Below are positions 44,932-54,387 of a stretch of 64,000 nt of DNA, in pieces (the stretch's first letter is position 1; each line of letters begins with the position of its first letter). The notes under the pieces were generated by a model. The model saw only the letters and a list, made by a program, of their open reading frames with translations. It made no database searches and was not told the DNA's origin. The translations under genes and the position numbers were made by a program. The stretch comes from Chthonomonadaceae bacterium (GTDB lineage Bacteria > Armatimonadota > Chthonomonadetes > Chthonomonadales > Chthonomonadaceae): positions 1 to 64,000 of the forward strand of contig DAIDHN010000013.1 in assembly GCA_027459665.1 (NCBI GenBank), in the 5' to 3' direction.

Positions 44932-46641
44932 TTATTTTCCGGGGGTTGTGGCAGGCTGTGCCGGGCTGCCTCCTGTTGGGTTTGCTGCCCCGCCGGGCGG
45001 AACTGCCCCCGGTGATGCGGGCGGCGTTACGACTGGTGCCGCCGGCCGTGGCTGCGGGTTGAGCGAAATAGTGCGAGAAACAGTTTTGTTCAGGTTATCT
45101 GCTGCGGTAAGAGTGTAGCTTACCGGCCCATTCAGAGTGACCGATACATGCCCGGCAGCAGGCAGGTTGGAACCGATCACGTTGTTGCTGCCATCTGTAA
45201 TGGTAACGTTTTGCGTACGCAGGGTAGACCAGCGAAGTTCTACTGTATCACCCAGGTATGCATGCGCATTGGATACATGAAAACCCTGAATGTCTGCTAC
45301 CGAAGCAGAAGGGGAGACCACCGTAATGCGCAGTGTGCGCGATGCAGGCGGTGCGCTGCTGCCTTGCAGCGGCATTGCGCGCAAAGTGTAGGTGACCTGT
45401 GAGGGCAGGGTGACTGGCTGCGGCACAAGTGATGTAGACGCCACGTATTCAGAAAGTTTGTGATCGCCGGGGTCAAGTATAAAGCCTGAGCTGTTGGCTG
45501 CTTTCCATGAGAAAGTAACGGTTTCTCCCAGATGAATTTCTGTAGAGTCGGCGGTAAACGAAGAAAGCGCCGGGTGCGGAAGAGCAGGTGCCGGAATAAG
45601 CTGTACATCTACAGTACGGCTTTGTCTGCCGCCCCTGCCAGACACGGTAAGGGTATAGTGCGCCACAGTTGGCAGGCTCACTGTATCTGTATGCAGCAGA
45701 GTGTTGCCGCTTGCTTCGTACGGGCGCGGCATATTGTCGAAAATAACGCTCTGGTTTTCTGTGTGGCTCAGGGTGAACTTATTGTAGTCGCCCTGCACAT
45801 CCCAGGAAAGAGTGATTGGTCCGCCTGAAACCAGTGCGGCGGGGGTGGCCGTGAGTGCAGTGATGCGAATGGGAACCGGCGGGCGCGGACGAAAGAGCGC
45901 AAAACCGCCTGCGCCCAGGGCGAGCAGCAGCAGCAGCACCCCCAGCGCTGGAGAAAGCAGTGCGTAGCGTTCAAGCTGTCCCTGAGTTTTACTGCTTATA
46001 TAGGCATCATCTGCTGCGCGCGCCCACACAGAAAACCCGAAGATGCGCGAATTGCCTAACCATCTCACTACCTTGGGGCGTACTGCAAGCGGTATGGTAA
46101 CTGTTTCACCGGGCTTGAGGGTAATGCGGTCTACATCAAATTCAAAAGCGCATTCATCATCCGGGTCGCTGGCAGTGAGTTCTGCGGTTTGCTCGGTATT
46201 GCCCAGGTTGGTAACCTGTACCTCAAAATCTTGCAGAGGGTGCAGAAAAGTAGATGCGGCACGCCTGGGCTGCATGTCTGTTTCCAGTGCAGAGAAAGGT
46301 TTTACCATCAGCATAGCCTGCGCCATGCCTGTCTCGCCGGTTTCCATTGCCTGCACGCGTACCAGAAACGGGTAAGAACCGGCGATATTCGAGCTGCTGC
46401 GCATGATGCGTATATTGATGCGCACTTCACCCTGTGCGCCTGGCGCCAGGTTCACAGCTGCAACCGGTATGTTGTACCACTCAAGGTCTATGCCTTCAAT
46501 TTCTACCAGCATTCTGTCTGGGGTAGACTGGCGGTTGGTAATCTGCACTGTAAGCTTGGCAACTGTTCCCGGTTCGGCCAGAATATCAGGCTCTGAAAGG
46601 TGTACAAGAATTTTTTGTGTTTCTGGTATGGTGGAGGACAT
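44932..46641 (-). CDS. membrane protein with Ig-like domains
   Basis: 569 residues. The N-terminal 225 residues are beta-rich adhesion-like domains (TVAKLTVQITNRQSTPDRMLVEIEG region and DFEVQVTNLGNTEQ), followed by one transmembrane helix (LLSPALGVLLLLLALGAGGF). Three to four Ig-like/PKD-type repeats follow, each with a core like ITLSWDVQG, VTFSWKAAN and VELRWST. The C-terminus is Pro/Gly/Ala-rich and disordered. No catalytic motif; a surface or scaffold protein. The frame opens at 46698 but the ATG at 46641 has AAAGAG upstream and begins the conserved part. Confidence 0.8.
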   Translation of the reverse strand: MSSTIPETQKILVHLSEPDILAEPGTVAKLTVQITNRQSTPDRMLVEIEGIDLEWYNIPVAAVNLAPGAQGEVRINIRIMRSSSNIAGSYPFLVRVQAMETGETGMAQAMLMVKPFSALETDMQPRRAASTFLHPLQDFEVQVTNLGNTEQTAELTASDPDDECAFEFDVDRITLKPGETVTIPLAVRPKVVRWLGNSRIFGFSVWARAADDAYISSKTQGQLERYALLSPALGVLLLLLALGAGGFALFRPRPPVPIRITALTATPAALVSGGPITLSWDVQGDYNKFTLSHTENQSVIFDNMPRPYEASGNTLLHTDTVSLPTVAHYTLTVSGRGGRQSRTVDVQLIPAPALPHPALSSFTADSTEIHLGETVTFSWKAANSSGFILDPGDHKLSEYVASTSLVPQPVTLPSQVTYTLRAMPLQGSSAPPASRTLRITVVSPSASVADIQGFHVSNAHAYLGDTVELRWSTLRTQNVTITDGSNNVIGSNLPAAGHVSVTLNGPVSYTLTAADNLNKTVSRTISLNPQPRPAAPVVTPPASPGAVPPGGAANPTGGSPAQPATTPGK

Positions 46642-46720
46642 ATTATCAAAACTCTTTCTGACTGCATGCGGCGGCGGGGGGATACCCTTGTGGGGCATCC
46701 TCTGCCAGAGAGAACCCTGC

Positions 46721-46894
46721 TGGTATTATAATGATTACGTATGTTTTTGTCAATCTGCGCCCGTTGTTTCAAGAGTTTCGCCTGCCTGAGAATGAAGTGT
46801 ATATTATTCATTCAATTGCGGCTGAAGACATTATGAGTATGGTAGATTGATAAAGACTCTGCACGCGCAACAATTTGTTGCGCGTACTTTTTTT
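46721..46894 (+). ncRNA. candidate short transcript with its own promoter-like box and terminator
   Basis: An extended -10-like TGGTATTAT at 46721-46729 lies about 135 bases ahead of a perfect 23-base palindrome (46863-46885, GC-rich stem) followed by ACTTTTTTT, a strong + strand terminator. No recognised gene lies between. A 39-codon frame (46731-46850, ending HSIAAEDIMSMVD) has no ribosome site and its ATG falls within the promoter box. Either a small RNA or a short peptide gene is possible. No -35 hexamer was found. Confidence 0.35.
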
Positions 46895-46918
46895 CTTCAT
46901 TTATGAGTTGCGAAAATA

Positions 46919-47125
46919 ATGAACGCAATTATAATTTACTCGCGCACGCACGAGCTAAGAGCGTTCACAAGTAACATGGGAAATTCGGTCTTTGCTATTG
47001 CCGGGTCATTCAATCTCGAAATAAATTTTGGGTGTGACCTGGCAAGTGGGTATACCGTGCTAATTTGCGACAAAAGAGCAAGCCGTGTTTCTCTGGAGGA
47101 AATGTTTTGCAGCGAGGGTGAATAA
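46919..47125 (+). CDS. possible small protein of unknown function
   Basis: 68 codons from an ATG preceded only by a weak GAGTTG. The translation (for example FGCDLASGYTVLICDKRASR) has no recognised motif, membrane segment or signal. It lies between a terminator and hpnH in an otherwise gene-free stretch (46895-47304). It may be a chance frame or a decayed gene. Confidence 0.25.
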   Translation: MNAIIIYSRTHELRAFTSNMGNSVFAIAGSFNLEINFGCDLASGYTVLICDKRASRVSLEEMFCSEGE

Positions 47126-47304: not shown

Positions 47305-48306
47305 ATGCGCTACCCTATTGGTTTCACCATGGCTCAGGTTAAACATAGAAGAAAAATGGAACGGGAAGGCAAAAGCAGATTTCCCACTGTTTTGATGCTG
47401 GAACCGCTTTATACCTGCAACCTCGCCTGCATTGGCTGCTCGGTAGAGAGGCACACCGGTAAATTGAAAGACCGCATGTCGCTGGAAACATGCTTCAAGG
47501 CGGTAGATGACTGCGGTGCGCCCATTGTGAACCTTTGCGGCGGCGAGCCTACTCTCTATCCAGAATTGAAAGAACTCATAGAGGGCCTGATTGCTCGCGG
47601 CAAATACATTATTCTCTGCACTAATGCACTCAAGCTTGATACCAAACTATACGGCATTGTACCGCCGCACCCGCAGCTTTTTTTGATGATTCATCTGGAT
47701 GGCATGAAAAAAACACATGACTATGTGTGCAATAAAGAAGGGGTGTTTGAACATGCCGTAGCGATGATTGAAAAGGGGCGCGAACTGGGGTACACCATCT
47801 ACATCAATACCACTGTATTCAAAGAAACAGAAATTTCTGAAGTAGAAGAACTGTGCCAGATGGTAGACAGACTCAAGGTGAAAGGCATTCTTATTTCACC
47901 GGGCTATGAGTATCAAAGCGTAGAACGCGATATTTTTCTGACCCGCGACCAGATACACGAAAAATTTCAGCATATTCGCGAGTTTGCACGCAAGTACAAA
48001 GTCAGTGCTACCCCGGGGTTTCTTGAATTTGCTGCTGGTTTGAAAGAACTGCCCTGCGCCCCCTGGTCTACTGTGAACTATACTCCTATGGGCTGGAAAG
48101 CGCCCTGCTACCTGGTAGGAGATAAATTTACGCCAGACTGGGAAACCTTCTGGAACAAGACCAACTGGGAATACTGGGAATCGCGCATAGATTCACGCTG
48201 CCAGAACTGCAAGATGCACAGCGGGTTTGAACACAGTGCAGTAGAGGAAGCTTTGAAGACCATGCGCGGCACGCTGCAGCTGACAGCATGGTCGCTGACT
48301 GGTTAG
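47305..48306 (+). CDS. hpnH: adenosyl-hopene transferase (radical SAM)
   Basis: 333 residues. The radical-SAM cluster motif CNLACIGC gives Cys38, Cys42 and Cys45. IVNLCGGEPTLYPEL is the GGEP SAM-binding motif. The N-terminus FTMAQVKHRRKMEREG with FPTVLMLEPLYTCN and the C-terminal PCAPWSTVNYTPMGWKAPCYL match HpnH, which joins adenosine to diploptene, the first step to extended C35 hopanoids. I chose the ATG at 47305, where family similarity begins; a GTG at 47281 is the outer limit. It leads a run of hopanoid and isoprenoid genes. Confidence 0.95.
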   Translation: MRYPIGFTMAQVKHRRKMEREGKSRFPTVLMLEPLYTCNLACIGCSVERHTGKLKDRMSLETCFKAVDDCGAPIVNLCGGEPTLYPELKELIEGLIARGKYIILCTNALKLDTKLYGIVPPHPQLFLMIHLDGMKKTHDYVCNKEGVFEHAVAMIEKGRELGYTIYINTTVFKETEISEVEELCQMVDRLKVKGILISPGYEYQSVERDIFLTRDQIHEKFQHIREFARKYKVSATPGFLEFAAGLKELPCAPWSTVNYTPMGWKAPCYLVGDKFTPDWETFWNKTNWEYWESRIDSRCQNCKMHSGFEHSAVEEALKTMRGTLQLTAWSLTG

Positions 48307-48316
48307 GAGACCCTGT

Positions 48317-49360
48317 ATGAAAGCGCTGGTAACCGGCGCCACTGGTTTTGTGGGGTTTCATGTGGCGCGCCAGCTGCAGGCAGAAGGAGTTTTTGTACGC
48401 CTGCTTGCACGGCCCGCCAGCCAGACTGCCAACCTGCATGACCTGAACCCGGGTATGTGCGAAGTGGTGACAGGCGACCTTGTGCAGCCGCACACGCTGC
48501 AGGAAGCGGTAAAAAACTGCAGCAGGGTATACCATGTCGCCGCAGACTACCGGCTTTGGGCGCCAGACCCGCAGGAACTCTACCTGAGCAATGTAAACGG
48601 TACACGCAATCTGCTGGAAGCGGCGCGTGCCGCGGGAGTAGAACGGGTGGTATATACCAGCACAGTGGGGGCGCTGGGGCATGCCCGAAAGGGCGATGCG
48701 GCAGACGAGGATACCCCCGTGCTGGAAAGCGATATGATAGGCCATTACAAAAGGTCGAAGTTTCTTGCCGAAGAAGCTGCCCGTGAGTACGCCGCCGCCG
48801 GGCTGGATGTGGTGATTGTAAACCCCAGCACCCCAATAGGCGACCATGACCGCAAGCCTACCCCAACTGGCAAAATAATAGTCGATTTTCTAAATGGCCG
48901 CCTGCCTGCCTACGTAGATACCGGCCTGAACCTGATTGCAGTGGAAGATGTTGCGGCAGGCATTTTGCTTGCGGCCGATAAGGGGGTGAGGGGGCGCAGA
49001 TATATTCTGGGCAACCGCAATACATCGCTGTGTGAGATGCTGCAGATGCTGGCAGCTGTCACCGGGCTTCCGGCTCCGCGCATCAAGCTGCCGTATGCAG
49101 CGGCATGGGCTGCTGTAGGCGCTGAAAATTTGGCGGCCCGTGTAGTAAACCGCCCACCCGCACACCCATTTGAAGGGGTGAAAATGGCACGGCATGCCAT
49201 GTACTTTAGCGCGGAAAGGGCCTGTAGAGAACTTGGACTGCCGCAAACCTCTGTAGAGCAGGCACTAAAACGCGCTGCACACTGGTTTGCAGCAAACGGA
49301 TATGTAAAACAGGAGGCCAGAAAGCAAGCGGCGCTGGCTGTTTCCGGGAGAGAACAATGA
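48317..49360 (+). CDS. hpnA: hopanoid-associated sugar epimerase
   Basis: 347 residues, extended SDR fold. The Rossmann motif is VTGATGFVGFHVARQL, the catalytic Ser/Thr region is YTSTVGALG, and the Tyr-Lys pair sits in HYKRSKFLAE (YKRSK replacing YxxxK). VNPSTPIGDHDRKPTPTGKI is characteristic of HpnA, found in hopanoid operons and presumed to modify hopanoid sugars. Its stop overlaps the ispH start (ATGA). It is 10 bases downstream of hpnH. Confidence 0.93.
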   Translation: MKALVTGATGFVGFHVARQLQAEGVFVRLLARPASQTANLHDLNPGMCEVVTGDLVQPHTLQEAVKNCSRVYHVAADYRLWAPDPQELYLSNVNGTRNLLEAARAAGVERVVYTSTVGALGHARKGDAADEDTPVLESDMIGHYKRSKFLAEEAAREYAAAGLDVVIVNPSTPIGDHDRKPTPTGKIIVDFLNGRLPAYVDTGLNLIAVEDVAAGILLAADKGVRGRRYILGNRNTSLCEMLQMLAAVTGLPAPRIKLPYAAAWAAVGAENLAARVVNRPPAHPFEGVKMARHAMYFSAERACRELGLPQTSVEQALKRAAHWFAANGYVKQEARKQAALAVSGREQ

Positions 49361-50241
49361 GCGAACGTACAAAACGCACGGTAATTATGGCGAAGGAAGT
49401 AGGGTTTTGTTTTGGGGTAAAACGTGCCATCAACCTGACAAGACAGGCGCTTGCCGAACACAATAATGTTTTTATTCTGGGAGACCTGGTACACAACAAA
49501 AGAGTAACAGACGAACTGGAAGGCAAGGGACTGCGCAAGATTGAAGACTATGAAGATGAAAAAACCGGCACTATGGTGATTAGGGCGCACGGTCTGCCCA
49601 AAACGAGAATACAGGAAGCGCGCAGCCGAGGTATTGATGTAGTAGATGCCACCTGCCCCATTGTACTGAGGGCACAGGAGGCAGCGCAAACTCTGGAGAG
49701 AGACGGCTATCAGGTGGTTATAATCGGCGATAAAAACCACGCAGAAATCAAGGGCATACTGGGCGCACTGGAAAACCCTGCCCTGGTAGTAGACAATATT
49801 CAGGAGCTGCATGAGGCAAAGCGCTCGTACAAGCTTTTGCGCAAGGTGGGAGTGATTTTTCAAACCACGCATGCCCTGGAACTGTGCAACAGCATTGTGA
49901 ATGAAATGCTGATGATGTGCAAGGAGATTCGCATCATCAATACCATCTGCCGGCCCGTGCAAAACAGGCAGGATGATGCAATTGAACTGGCAGGCAAGGT
50001 AGACCTTATGCTGGTGGTGGGGTCGCGCACCAGCGCCAACACCATGGAACTTGCCGCGCTGTGCCGCTACCACAATCCGAATACTGTACATGTTCAGAAT
50101 GCAGATGAGCTGCCCGTTGAAACCTTTGCCCACTGCCGCATTGTGGGAATTGCCTCTGGCCTCTCTACACCGGAAGACCTGGTGGAAGCCGTGCGCGTGA
50201 AGGTGCTGACTGCCGATATGGAACCTGTTTCGGCAGCATGA
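49357..50241 (+). CDS. ispH: 4-hydroxy-3-methylbut-2-enyl diphosphate reductase
   Basis: 294 residues. The three Cys ligating the [4Fe-4S] cluster are in EVGFCFGVKRA (Cys18), VVDATCPIV and NTICRPVQNRQDD. GDKNHAEIKGILG holds conserved His and Glu residues. It catalyses the last MEP-pathway step, giving IPP and DMAPP. Placement inside the hopanoid run ties isoprenoid supply to hopanoid synthesis. Its start overlaps hpnA by four bases. Confidence 0.97.
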   Translation: MSERTKRTVIMAKEVGFCFGVKRAINLTRQALAEHNNVFILGDLVHNKRVTDELEGKGLRKIEDYEDEKTGTMVIRAHGLPKTRIQEARSRGIDVVDATCPIVLRAQEAAQTLERDGYQVVIIGDKNHAEIKGILGALENPALVVDNIQELHEAKRSYKLLRKVGVIFQTTHALELCNSIVNEMLMMCKEIRIINTICRPVQNRQDDAIELAGKVDLMLVVGSRTSANTMELAALCRYHNPNTVHVQNADELPVETFAHCRIVGIASGLSTPEDLVEAVRVKVLTADMEPVSAA

Positions 50242-50255
50242 AAGGATAGCAGAGG

Positions 50256-50981
50256 GTGGACCCCATCAACTCTGGGCCGGTTGCTGTTCTGTTTGCACTG
50301 CCACAGGAGAAAGGGCCTTTTCTGCGCAGACATCCTTCACTTGCTGCAGGCTGCCTTGTCGCATGTTCTGGTGCAGGCGCAGCTGCCGCCCGGCATGCTG
50401 CAGAGCAGCTTTTGCAGAAAAAACCTCGGCTGCTGATAGTATGCGGCTTTGCCGGAGCCATGGGCAGCCTTGAGCCTGGGCAGCTGATTGCAGCACATAC
50501 CGTAGTCTCTGCCTCTTCACGCTGCCGCTACACTGCCCCTGCGCAAAGGGTGAGACAAATAGAGTGCGCTGCTTCTCGTTTACCTCAGATAACGCTGCAA
50601 ACCGGCACCCTGGCAACGGCAGAGAGGGTTCTGATGAATTACCAGGAAAAAACTGCGCTGAATGATCTGCCCGGCATGGTGCGTGCCGATGCCGTAGACA
50701 TGGAAACCGCTGCCGCAGCAGAAGCTGCACAGGCGCAGAACACCGACTGGGCTGCACTGCGCGCAATCACCGATGGGCTGCATGACGCCATGCCGCTGGA
50801 TTTTAACAGCCTTGCAGACAGCAATGGGCAAACACCGCTCGCAAAAGTGGCGCTGGCCGCGCTGCGCACCCCCTCTGCAATGCCGGGACTGCTGACGCTG
50901 GGCAGACGCTCTGCACTGGCGGCGCGCAATCTGGCCGACTGCCTGAGCGTATTTCTGGAAGAAGAGATGCGCCCGGTATGA
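50256..50981 (+). CDS. hpnG: hopanoid-associated nucleoside phosphorylase
   Basis: 241 residues of the MTA/SAH nucleosidase-phosphorylase fold: LIVCGFAGAMGSLEPGQLI, AVDMETAAAAEAAQ (the nucleoside-binding Met-Glu) and LRAITDGLHDAMP with the catalytic Asp. HpnG cleaves adenine from adenosylhopane made by HpnH, giving ribosylhopane (or its phosphate). The GTG start has AAGGA about 10 bases upstream. Its last bases overlap the start of the TolC-like gene (ATGA), directly coupling hopanoid processing with an efflux-type protein. Confidence 0.92.
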   Translation: MDPINSGPVAVLFALPQEKGPFLRRHPSLAAGCLVACSGAGAAAARHAAEQLLQKKPRLLIVCGFAGAMGSLEPGQLIAAHTVVSASSRCRYTAPAQRVRQIECAASRLPQITLQTGTLATAERVLMNYQEKTALNDLPGMVRADAVDMETAAAAEAAQAQNTDWAALRAITDGLHDAMPLDFNSLADSNGQTPLAKVALAALRTPSAMPGLLTLGRRSALAARNLADCLSVFLEEEMRPV

Positions 50982-52264
50982 AAAATCTGCCCCTGTTTTG
51001 TACGCTGCTGTTCACGGCCGCCTGCCCTCTGGTGCATGCTGCCCCTCTTACATTGCAGCAGGCAGTGCAGCAGGCGCTTGCTGCAAGCCCTCAAATAAGA
51101 GAAGCCCGGGCCGAGAAGAAATCTGCACTGATACTGGCAGATAACGATAAACCTGTGGGGCGTACCCATTTCTCGCTGGTGGCCAGGGGTGGTTTGCAGG
51201 GGCCGCATCGCAATCTCCCGCTGAACTCGCCCGACAATGTTGTGCTGCCTCGCACTCAGGGCAGCATAGGGCTGGTGATGCAGCAAACAATTTACCATGC
51301 CGGCAGAAGGGCTGCCTGGCAAAGGTATCAGGCCGAAATTGCCCAGGCGCAGTACCATTTTGTGCAGGCGCAGAATAAAACGGCAGAGCAAACTGCCAAT
51401 GCCTATATTGATGTGCTGAAAGCCCGGCAGGGTGTTGTACTGGCAAAACAGGGGGTGCAGGCAGCAGAGCAGTTTGCAAAACTGGTACAGCAGCAGATTG
51501 CTGGAGGAACCGGGAAACCTGTTGATGCCTACACAGCGCTAACACAGAAAACTGAGGCGCAAGATGGTTTGCTGAAAGCAGAATCGGGGCTTTCGCTGGC
51601 GCAAATGCATCTCAATCAGCTGCTGGGACGCCCTTTGAATGCTCCGCTTGAACTAACTGACGATACAACAGAGGCGGCTGTGCCGGCAAGCGTGGAACAG
51701 GCTGTGGCGCTGGCGCAAAAATGCCGCCCGGAGCTGCTTGCCCTGAAAGCCAGGCTGCAGCAGGCTGAGGCGGAAACACAACTTGCCCGCATGGAAGACA
51801 GACCTCAGCTGCTGCTGCGCGGCGACTTGAGAGAACAGACCCCAACAGCGCTTCGCCCCGAAAATTATGCCGCCCTGATGCTGGAGGTGCGCTGGCCCTT
51901 TGAGGATGGCGGGAAGGCCCGTCGTGATACGCTTGCTGCGGAAGAAGGAGTGAAAGGGCTGCGAGCCGCACTGCAGGATGCCGAGTCGAACATTGCCCTG
52001 GAAATACAAAACGACTGGGTGCAGCTGGGCGAAGCACATTCCCGAATTGCTCTGCAGCAGGTGCGCCTGAACGCCGCGCTTCAGCAGGAAACCGTTGCGT
52101 TGACAGCCTATCGAGTGGGGCAGGGCAGCGCTCTGGAAGAGAAGGCGGCAGCAAGTGAAGCCCTTAGCAGCCGTATTGCACTGCTAAGAGCGCAGTTTGC
52201 CAGCATGCGTGCTTCTATAACACTTTTGTTTGCAGAAGGGAAAGGGCTTGCAAGTGACCATTAG
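50978..52264 (+). CDS. TolC-like outer membrane efflux protein
   Basis: 428 residues with a signal peptide ending near VHAAPL (about residue 22). Two OEP repeats are visible, each with Ala/Gln-rich amphipathic helices (TLQQAVQQALAASPQIREA, and VEQAVALAQKCRPELLALKA), giving the trimeric outer-membrane channel-tunnel. It is coupled to hpnG by an ATGA overlap. The encoded HlyD-like protein follows with an 11-base overlap. Presence indicates a diderm envelope. Confidence 0.9.
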   Translation: MKNLPLFCTLLFTAACPLVHAAPLTLQQAVQQALAASPQIREARAEKKSALILADNDKPVGRTHFSLVARGGLQGPHRNLPLNSPDNVVLPRTQGSIGLVMQQTIYHAGRRAAWQRYQAEIAQAQYHFVQAQNKTAEQTANAYIDVLKARQGVVLAKQGVQAAEQFAKLVQQQIAGGTGKPVDAYTALTQKTEAQDGLLKAESGLSLAQMHLNQLLGRPLNAPLELTDDTTEAAVPASVEQAVALAQKCRPELLALKARLQQAEAETQLARMEDRPQLLLRGDLREQTPTALRPENYAALMLEVRWPFEDGGKARRDTLAAEEGVKGLRAALQDAESNIALEIQNDWVQLGEAHSRIALQQVRLNAALQQETVALTAYRVGQGSALEEKAAASEALSSRIALLRAQFASMRASITLLFAEGKGLASDH

Positions 52265-53537
52265 CCCAAGAGCAATAGCGGCAGCTGCACTGCTGGCAGT
52301 TACTGCAGTGTCTGCGTTTGCATTTATGCCGCACCCTGCGGCACGCCGGTCGCTGCCTGTACCGCCTCCTGCTGCCCCTGATGTGCCTGTTGCGCCTGAC
52401 CCCGGCAAGCAGACCGATTTTGAAACTGCCCAGCTAACCGGTACCCTTATGCCGGGAGACTCGGCCAGCCTGTCGGTGATGCAGCCGGGCAGAGTGGTTT
52501 TTGTTGGTGCGGCCAATGGAGACACTGTGCAGGCTGAAGCAACGCTTCTGCGCCTGGATAACGGAATAGCATCTGCGCAGGTAAAACAGGCAGAGGGTGC
52601 GCTTGCTTCTGCACAAGATGGTTTGCTAAAGGCGCAGGCAGGCGGGGAGGCGCAAGAGCAAAAGGCTGCAAATGGCCTGCTGCAGGCGCAGTCTGATCTG
52701 AAACAGGCACAACTGCAGTATGCGCAGGCCCTGCTGGGCCTGCAAGGTGCGCAGTCAGAGCAGAAAGCCAATGCAGCAGGTGCGCGCAGCGAACTGGACA
52801 AGGCGCGCATAGGGGTGGAGCAGGCGAAGCAGACTGTAGACGGGTTGAAGGCGCTGAAGAGAGTGGGAGGGGTTTCGCAGCAGCAGATGAGCGGCGCCGC
52901 AGCGCAGCTGCAGGTTGCGCGCGATGACTTTCGGGCTGCCCGCACAAGGCTGCAAACCGTGCTTGCAGGCACCCGGGCAGGCGTTCCTTTTGGCATTGCC
53001 AATGCCAGGCAGAAGCTGGATATGGCTAAGCAGGGAGTACAGACTGCACTAAAAGGGGTGCAGGCGGCAGAAAAAGGCAAACAAACGGTGCAAAAGCTGG
53101 CAGCAAGTGAGGTGCAGACCGCGCAGGCGGGCATTGCTCAGGCTGAGGCAGGCGTGCAGAGCGCCAGGACAGCACAGCAGTTCAACGTGATACGCAGCCC
53201 CATTGCCGGTATTGTGAGCGGGCTTTCTTTGCATATTGGCGAGATGGCCCAGCCTGGCATGCCTCTGCTTACTGTGCAGAATGCGCAGGGCGCGCATGTA
53301 GATGCACTTGCTGCAGGCAGTGTGCTTGCCCACCTGCACACAGGAGAGAAGGCGCTTATTCATCTGCCTCAATGGGCAGGCAAAGACCTGCAGGCTAGGC
53401 TGGTAAGAATATCTTCTGTTGCAGAAGCGGATGGCCGTTCTTTCAAGGTAAAGTTTGAGCTGGTTAAACCGCCGGCGCATTTGCCGCTGGGCATGCATGT
53501 AGATATTATGCTGCAAACGCAGCCTGCCGGGAAGTAG
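52254..53537 (+). CDS. HlyD/RND-type periplasmic adaptor (membrane fusion protein)
   Basis: About 427 residues. One N-terminal membrane helix (ALLAVTAVSAFAF) is followed by a lipoyl half-motif (LMPGDSASLSVMQPGRVVFV), a very long Ala/Gln/Lys-rich coiled-coil hairpin (about 110-300), the second lipoyl half NVIRSPIAGIVSGLSLHIGE, and a beta-barrel domain. I chose the GTG at 52254 because AAAGGG lies 7 bases upstream. It should bridge an inner-membrane pump to the TolC-like channel, but no pump gene follows; the transporter must be encoded elsewhere. Confidence 0.88.
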   Translation: MTISPRAIAAAALLAVTAVSAFAFMPHPAARRSLPVPPPAAPDVPVAPDPGKQTDFETAQLTGTLMPGDSASLSVMQPGRVVFVGAANGDTVQAEATLLRLDNGIASAQVKQAEGALASAQDGLLKAQAGGEAQEQKAANGLLQAQSDLKQAQLQYAQALLGLQGAQSEQKANAAGARSELDKARIGVEQAKQTVDGLKALKRVGGVSQQQMSGAAAQLQVARDDFRAARTRLQTVLAGTRAGVPFGIANARQKLDMAKQGVQTALKGVQAAEKGKQTVQKLAASEVQTAQAGIAQAEAGVQSARTAQQFNVIRSPIAGIVSGLSLHIGEMAQPGMPLLTVQNAQGAHVDALAAGSVLAHLHTGEKALIHLPQWAGKDLQARLVRISSVAEADGRSFKVKFELVKPPAHLPLGMHVDIMLQTQPAGK

Positions 53538-53607
53538 TGCCATTGTGTACAGTTTGTGCCTTGCTCTAGTGACTGAAGTATTCAATTGAGATGTGCAGGA
53601 AAGCGAT

Positions 53608-53805
53608 ATGGCGGTATTGTATTATGTAAAAAGGGAGTTCGATACAGTCATCATTCTGGATGCGAATAATTCAATTTGGCCATTGGGAAAAGCAGAAAAT
53701 GATGGGCGTCTGGAAGAAGAACTTCGTCTGTTCTCTGTCTCTGTATCATGTGCTAAAAACAATTTATTAATATTTGTTTGCGATCAAATACAGAGTAAGA
53801 TGTGA
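53608..53805 (+). CDS. small unknown protein, frame continues past an in-frame TGA
   Basis: 65 codons with a good AGGAAAG site 4 bases ahead of the ATG. No domain recognised; the product is mixed polar/hydrophobic (FDTVIILDANNSIWPLGKAE). The same frame continues after the TGA at 53803 for 41 more codons (FIREMGLPTDAWLDDTDRKN, then IAKQLAENLKIPRC) to a TGA at 53929. This suggests a 106-codon gene with a premature stop, or two overlapping remnants. It is AT-rich relative to neighbours. Confidence 0.5.
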   Translation: MAVLYYVKREFDTVIILDANNSIWPLGKAENDGRLEEELRLFSVSVSCAKNNLLIFVCDQIQSKM

Positions 53806-54387
53806 ACACCTTCTCAGTTTATTCGGGAGATGGGATTGCCAACAGATGCCTGGCTCGATGATACCGACAGAAAGAATATTGCTAAACAACTTGCCGAAAA
53901 TCTTAAAATCCCGCGCTGTGCCTCTCACTGATTTCACTCCAAAAAAACAGTGATCTCCAGTGTGTTGAATCAGGCACTGATTACTTCAGAATTCAGATAC
54001 AACTGCACCTGGTATTACCTGGCGCTCACCTCAGCATTTTGCTATCTGGATATGCATTGCATACTGCGGAATGCTTGGTAGCTAATTTTTGTATTTATGC
54101 AAAAGAGGATAAAGCCATATCCAAGCAAAAAAGATTATTCGATTAATCTTGTTGTGCCTGCAGATGTGTAACTCACCGCTACGCACTGCTGAAATCACGG
54201 CATGGTATGGGCAGTTCTGGAGTACACTCAGGGAAGTGACCTGGATGTACTAAAAGAGTTTGCCGTTGCAGGCGCGACTGCATACTGATGCAATAAATCA
54301 TGGCTAGTTACAGCAAATAGAGTATATTGTCAGGAGGAGCCGAATGCTTTTGCATTGGCAAAATATACTCTTGAAAGGGAGAAAGCA
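53806..54387 (+). other. AT-rich region with decayed coding fragments
   Basis: After the interrupted frame above, short protein-like pieces appear in shifting + strand frames: ITSEFRYNCTWYYLALTSAF to a TAG near 54081, YAKEDKAISKQKRLFD to a TAA near 54146, and EYTQGSDLDVLKEFAVAGAT to a TGA near 54288. None has a start or ribosome site and no family was recognised. The layout fits one or two genes broken by several indels. No promoter-like box was clear ahead of the GH16 gene. Confidence 0.35.

Follow-up and report, generated by a model that had tools for sequence, protein, structure and literature searches.

A TolC-type channel and an adaptor encoded with hopanoid side-chain genes in Chthonomonadaceae, and their probable RND permease, displaced to another contig

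The window, a stretch of 64,000 nucleotides on contig C13, comes from a 3.67-Mb, 99.9% complete genome of the Chthonomonadaceae (Armatimonadota). Profile searches place six genes in line on its + strand at 47305-53537, in the order hpnH-hpnA-ispH-hpnG-tolC-hlyD (Table 1). The initial annotation had described this run as joined at several points by ATGA or 11-base overlaps, and both the profile matches and the joints confirm it. Read from the sequence, the joints from hpnH to hlyD are +10, ATGA (-4), +14, ATGA (-4) and an 11-base overlap, the last of which holds if hlyD starts at the GTG at 52254, a codon preceded by an AG-rich leader. We place the hpnH start at the ATG at 47305 because the HpnH of relatives opens with MRYPIGF; HpnH identity across the family genomes is approximately 72-83%. 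The name given to the putative hpnG rests in part on synteny, as its score is under the TIGR03468 cut-off. Overlaps, short gaps and kept order together suggest that hpnH to hlyD form a candidate operon. A consensus scan for promoters and terminators in the region upstream of hpnH gave no decisive signal. Separately, a divergent gene at 44932-46698 has a perfect sigma-70 consensus (TTGACA-17-TATAAT) in front of it, at window positions 46753-46725 on the - strand.

Table 1. Positions of the hopanoid and exporter genes in the window and of the sites flanking them.
Feature	Positions	Strand	Evidence and remarks
Terminator-like hairpin with T-run, upstream of the promoter-like site	46863..46885	+	Consensus scan, weak
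Promoter-like site upstream of hpnH	46908..46935	+	Consensus scan, 10/12 matches, weak
hpnH, radical-SAM adenosylhopane synthase	47305..48306	+	TIGR03470, 333 bits (cut-off 225)
hpnA, hopanoid-associated SDR/epimerase	48317..49360	+	TIGR03466, 446 bits (cut-off 368)
ispH (lytB), HMBPP reductase	49357..50241	+	TIGR00216, 261 bits (cut-off 188); ATGA overlap with hpnA
hpnG-like nucleoside phosphorylase	50256..50981	+	TIGR03468, 111 bits, below the 187-bit cut-off; syntenic with hpnG of the family
tolC-like outer-membrane factor	50978..52264	+	PF02321, 118 bits; ATGA overlap with hpnG
hlyD-like periplasmic adaptor	52254..53537	+	RND_mfp TIGR01730, 100.5 bits (cut-off 94.9); 11-base overlap with tolC
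Slot that holds an RND permease of about 1060 aa in 12 relatives	53538..54354	+	RND relic absent here

The genome carries the genes of the C35 hopanoid (bacteriohopanepolyol) pathway, namely squalene synthesis, shc, hpnH and the hpnG-like gene. Two squalene-synthase-type genes (SQS_PSY) lie on contig C6, and a search for shc outside the window, which the initial annotation had proposed, finds SHC on contig C46 (749 bits). In many relatives shc precedes hpnH and an RND gene follows hlyD, and the cluster is incomplete here because these two genes sit on other contigs (C46 and C69 respectively). Searching the whole window with RND permeases of the hpn-type by tblastn gave no significant match, hence no relic downstream of hlyD. 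Among 291 Armatimonadota genomes, HpnH is over its cut-off in 43 and SHC is found in 41, nearly the same set. HpnN (TIGR03480, cut-off 751.85 bits) reaches its cut-off in 0/291, a count obtained at E<=1e-40 with no positive control genome and relying on the order-level search, in which far homologs score 18-40 bits. The best score to the model, in this genome as across the order, is 40 bits against the 752-bit cut-off. We considered HpnN under another name and rejected it, since MMPL/RND matches reach only 18-40 bits. An RND pump with its own adaptor, encoded elsewhere beside hpnN, had been named as a finding that would speak against the proposed transport role; HpnN is absent.

Labelling the regions around HpnH matches with HMMs made from family members allowed us to follow gene order in the window's family (f1, 17 genomes), in f3 (2 genomes) and beyond, including a genome outside the order (G209, f27). 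The tolC-hlyD pair lies behind hpnG in all 17 f1 genomes, directly in 15 and with an insertion in the other two (about 2.4 kb in G041, about 3.4 kb in G046). The hpnG-tolC-hlyD linkage extends to the two f3 genomes, a single f2 genome (G038) and G209. The order is therefore not due to chance, being the same in 17/17 family genomes and beyond. The earlier proposal that hopanoid side-chain genes are coupled to a TolC/HlyD pair, with the same order to be sought in other Armatimonadota, is borne out; far from sitting next to unrelated genes in all relatives, the pair adjoins hpn genes throughout the family. The kept linkage is more telling because genomes of Chthonomonas calidirosea are reported to scatter operons, with his, trp and purine genes dispersed and many normal operons broken up (PMC4959169).

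An AcrB-type (HAE-1) ACR_tran permease of approximately 1060 aa lies directly after hlyD in 12 genomes, namely nine of f1, both of f3 (G055, G056) and G209; the operonic permease of G045 scores 787 bits to PF00873. Six f1 genomes, the one studied here among them, have the RND gene at another place (G000, G047, G048, G050, G051, G053), and its placement in G041 and G049 is undecidable from the assembly. In f2, tolC, hlyD and RND stay together apart from the hpn genes in G028-G030, G034, G035 and G037, and all of these are separate in G031-G033. In f28 the tolC-hlyD-RND unit likewise lies apart from the hpn genes.

Several neighbouring arrangements were observed along the way. Two related genomes (loci L039, L037) share a 1518-bp hpnA-ispH spacer of identical length holding short ORFs only. 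Before shc in many relatives (L041:194-3518 and syntenic places) are an aminotransferase, a secreted protein of about 220 aa and a protein of about 410 aa without a Pfam match. In f32 loci without hpnH (L234, L235), genes that we name from sequence reading as an ABC ATPase and an ABC-2-like permease, together with a DUF2092-like periplasmic protein gene, lie between tolC and hlyD-RND. In two f2 genomes (L246:13803-15008, L247:8256-9461), an unlinked tolC-hlyD is near a radical-SAM gene that is weakly HpnH-like.

In the genome studied here, the best match to the G045 operonic permease is found outside the window, at 4181-7339 of contig C69, with 57% identity (33% for the next paralog) and 764 bits to PF00873. 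In the RND tree it clusters with the RNDs of G047, G048 and G050, which are likewise unlinked, and G045 lies next to this group (support 100 and 100/99). The HlyD tree agrees with the RND tree, and these unlinked genomes also come together in the TolC tree; the window TolC groups with RND-linked TolCs of relatives. The C69 permease is the ortholog of the relatives' operonic RND, displaced from its place behind hlyD. Departure of the RND gene from the operon in an ancestor that this genus shares with two sister genera is the best explanation; simple loss of the pump from this genome was rejected, as the ortholog is on C69. The view of a system "lacking a local pump" was thus half right: the RND gene is absent locally, but the system does have a pump, with its ortholog on C69 and the RND gene next to hlyD in 12 relatives. 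Two or three separations of tripartite-pump genes have taken place, with those for channel and adaptor remaining beside the lipid genes. The 15 kb examined around the C69 RND holds no gene for an adaptor or a channel; downstream are DUF-like genes (DUF names from sequence reading). In the genome as a whole, ACR_tran RNDs number six and TolC-type channels seven. Directly upstream, on the opposite strand, is a partial integrase (rve_3; L110:3647-4009, on C69), which may mark how the RND gene moved.

The distribution of the permease was examined at two levels. The wider RND family has a match in 181/291 genomes, many without hpnH or shc, and we rejected it as an exclusive marker of hopanoid makers. 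Within it, the rows of the hpn-type subclade all come from HpnH-bearing genomes, and ten RNDs of HpnH-lacking genomes, together with Chthonomonadales paralogs, are separated from them by a 100/100 branch. One genome (G036, 96% complete) lacks HpnH, SHC, the hpn-type RND and the hpn-type adaptor, and keeps a paralogous RND. This is the only independent loss of shc and hpnH seen in the sample, and family membership is a confounder of the profile signal. In the hopanoid makers of f30 and f35, a clear hpn-type RND was not seen.

The exporter proteins have distinguishing features of their own. In an AlphaFold model (pLDDT 87.5), the window adaptor has a transmembrane helix (5-23), a lipoyl domain, a hairpin (104-309, about 200 residues) and, up to residue 421, a beta-barrel as the last domain of the chain, and its best PDB match by fold is EmrA (4tko). 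The membrane-proximal domain is absent from 16/16 f1 adaptors (395-442 aa); adaptors of f2, f3 and G209 are 502-547 aa long, with this extra C-terminal domain. The f1 adaptors have lost the domain and resemble EmrA, and the loss preceded the split, since in nine f1 genomes the shortened adaptor is encoded before the RND. The membrane-proximal domain is listed for all RND-associated adaptors (PMC8277102). The HAE-1 adaptor set of membrane-proximal, barrel, lipoyl and hairpin domains is accordingly incomplete in f1, where the GGVS/GGAS TolC-docking motif is retained. The permeases keep the TM4 DD pair and the TM11 RLRP. A comparison of loci L064 and L233-L243 with L035-L126 showed that the TM10 relay Lys, at a position which we take to be that of AcrB K940, is replaced by Arg (GLMGRN) in every hpn-type row of Chthonomonadales that covers the site. 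The Lys is kept in G209, f28, HpnH-lacking relatives and two paralogs.

Together these results give good support to a genetic tie between C35-hopanoid synthesis and one tripartite exporter. The operon of close relatives is (shc)-hpnH-hpnA-ispH-hpnG-tolC-hlyD-RND, most of which the window holds, with TolC as the outer-membrane channel and HlyD as the periplasmic adaptor of a single HAE-1 RND exporter. One possible mechanism, to which we tentatively incline at somewhat under an even chance, is that this exporter carries a C35 hopanoid or a product of the hopanoid pathway, that it does a job like that of Proteobacterial HpnN, and that TolC, HlyD and the C69 permease still assemble in this genome. 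Driven by the proton gradient, it would pick up its cargo at the outer leaflet of the inner membrane, and adaptor and TolC would then conduct the cargo toward the outer membrane or past it. That the cargo is a hopanoid or pathway product is, from gene content and arrangement, a similarly tentative proposal. In its favor we count the hpnG-tolC-hlyD linkage, the RND gene after hlyD, the phylogenetic profile, the co-loss in G036 and the lack of HpnN. Against a hopanoid cargo we count the frequency of the wider RND family without hpnH or shc, the units kept off the hpn genes in most f2 genomes and f28, the f30/f35 hopanoid makers, and the f1 adaptor without a domain described for all RND-associated adaptors. 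Known hopanoid RNDs are, furthermore, HAE-3/MMPL rather than HAE-1. A conduit of the TolC kind usually discharges to the cell exterior; it would expel its cargo instead of placing it in the outer membrane. A more general claim appears unlikely on the present comparison, namely that a dedicated HAE-1 RND-adaptor-TolC exporter (with shortened adaptor and Lys-to-Arg relay) takes the place of HpnN in C35-hopanoid-making Armatimonadota and brings hopanoids, or a derivative of them, to the cell surface or the outer membrane.

The specific linkage could also be attributed to co-regulation. An ordinary multidrug or envelope-stress efflux pump may be co-transcribed with hopanoid genes as both lower envelope permeability, hopanoids not being its cargo, and such a pump of a hopanoid-containing envelope is nearly as likely as a hopanoid cargo. 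The MdtB/AcrB-type HAE-1 family of the permease, the EmrA-like adaptor, the presence of the wider RND family in lineages without hopanoids and the unlinked unit in most f2 genomes all fit an efflux pump. They have to be set against the hpn-type subclade, which tracks genomes bearing hopanoid genes, the loss of the hpn-type RND in the one genome that lost those genes (G036), a linkage retained in a family whose operons are known to be scattered, and the absence of other drug genes from the run.

Two further explanations appear considerably less probable. TolC and HlyD could have been re-used here with another inner-membrane pump (MFS, ABC or another RND), leaving the C69 permease alone or with other partners. 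Displacement of the RND here and in five relatives would allow this, as would an adaptor that lacks the membrane-proximal domain and, among solved folds, comes nearest to EmrA, an MFS adaptor, and the own genome offers alternatives among its RNDs and TolC-type channels. We consider it improbable, as the same shortened adaptor is encoded directly before an RND gene in nine family genomes, an MFS or ABC gene after hlyD is absent, and the adaptor tree still matches the permease tree after the split. Slightly more improbable still is a passenger history, in which tolC-hlyD-RND landed behind hpnG once and stayed there with no functional meaning. Vertical inheritance alone would keep such a linkage in a family, and the trees are largely clade-like; however, the linkage occurs in four families, one of them outside the order, while neighbouring genes changed. 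Moreover, shc and RND moved off on more than one occasion and most of f2 no longer has the link, whereas the pair stayed with hpnG throughout the window's family.

An HAE-1 exporter tied to hopanoid synthesis suggests a hopanoid-linked export route in bacteria without HpnN. HpnN is the transporter that the papers found name for bringing hopanoids to the outer membrane. In PMC12583986 and PMC8277102, HpnN of Rhodopseudomonas palustris and Burkholderia multivorans is cited as taking hopanoids there, and HpnN is reported in every predicted bacteriohopanepolyol-producing alphaproteobacterium examined (PMC12583986). None of the 43 Armatimonadota genomes with HpnH has HpnN, and the exporter whose genes accompany the side-chain genes in Chthonomonadaceae belongs to another RND class. 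Our literature search, with subscription journals outside its scope, returned no paper that connects TolC or RND with the hopanoid genes of Armatimonadota or Chthonomonas, and no example of a tripartite conduit for a polycyclic triterpenoid was found in the literature searched. The analysis provides a named candidate exporter and a cultured relative, Chthonomonas calidirosea, in which hopanoid transport could be tested.

Four known systems come closest to this exporter. Like HpnN, the permease is an RND superfamily member genetically tied to hpn genes; HpnN, as with the known hopanoid RND proteins in general (PMC8277102), is of the HAE-3/MMPL class, with an 862-position model and a dimeric form, whereas here an HAE-1 ACR_tran protein of about 1060 aa comes with TolC and adaptor genes. 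MdtABC and AcrAB-TolC share the ACR_tran permease (MdtB is the best solved sequence match), a TolC-family channel and an adaptor with lipoyl, hairpin and barrel domains. They differ in that the components here belong to a hopanoid operon and lie at two loci, the f1 adaptors lack the membrane-proximal domain, and the TM10 Lys is Arg in Chthonomonadales. EmrAB-TolC, an MFS system, has the same adaptor fold of transmembrane anchor and long hairpin with no membrane-proximal domain, but the genetic partner in relatives is an RND permease and not an MFS protein. Among the BstABC sterol transport proteins of Methylococcus capsulatus (PMC10942540), an RND-family protein is linked to transport of a polycyclic triterpenoid lipid, as may be the case here; BstA is HpnN-like with BstB and BstC as partners, in place of which we find TolC and an adaptor.
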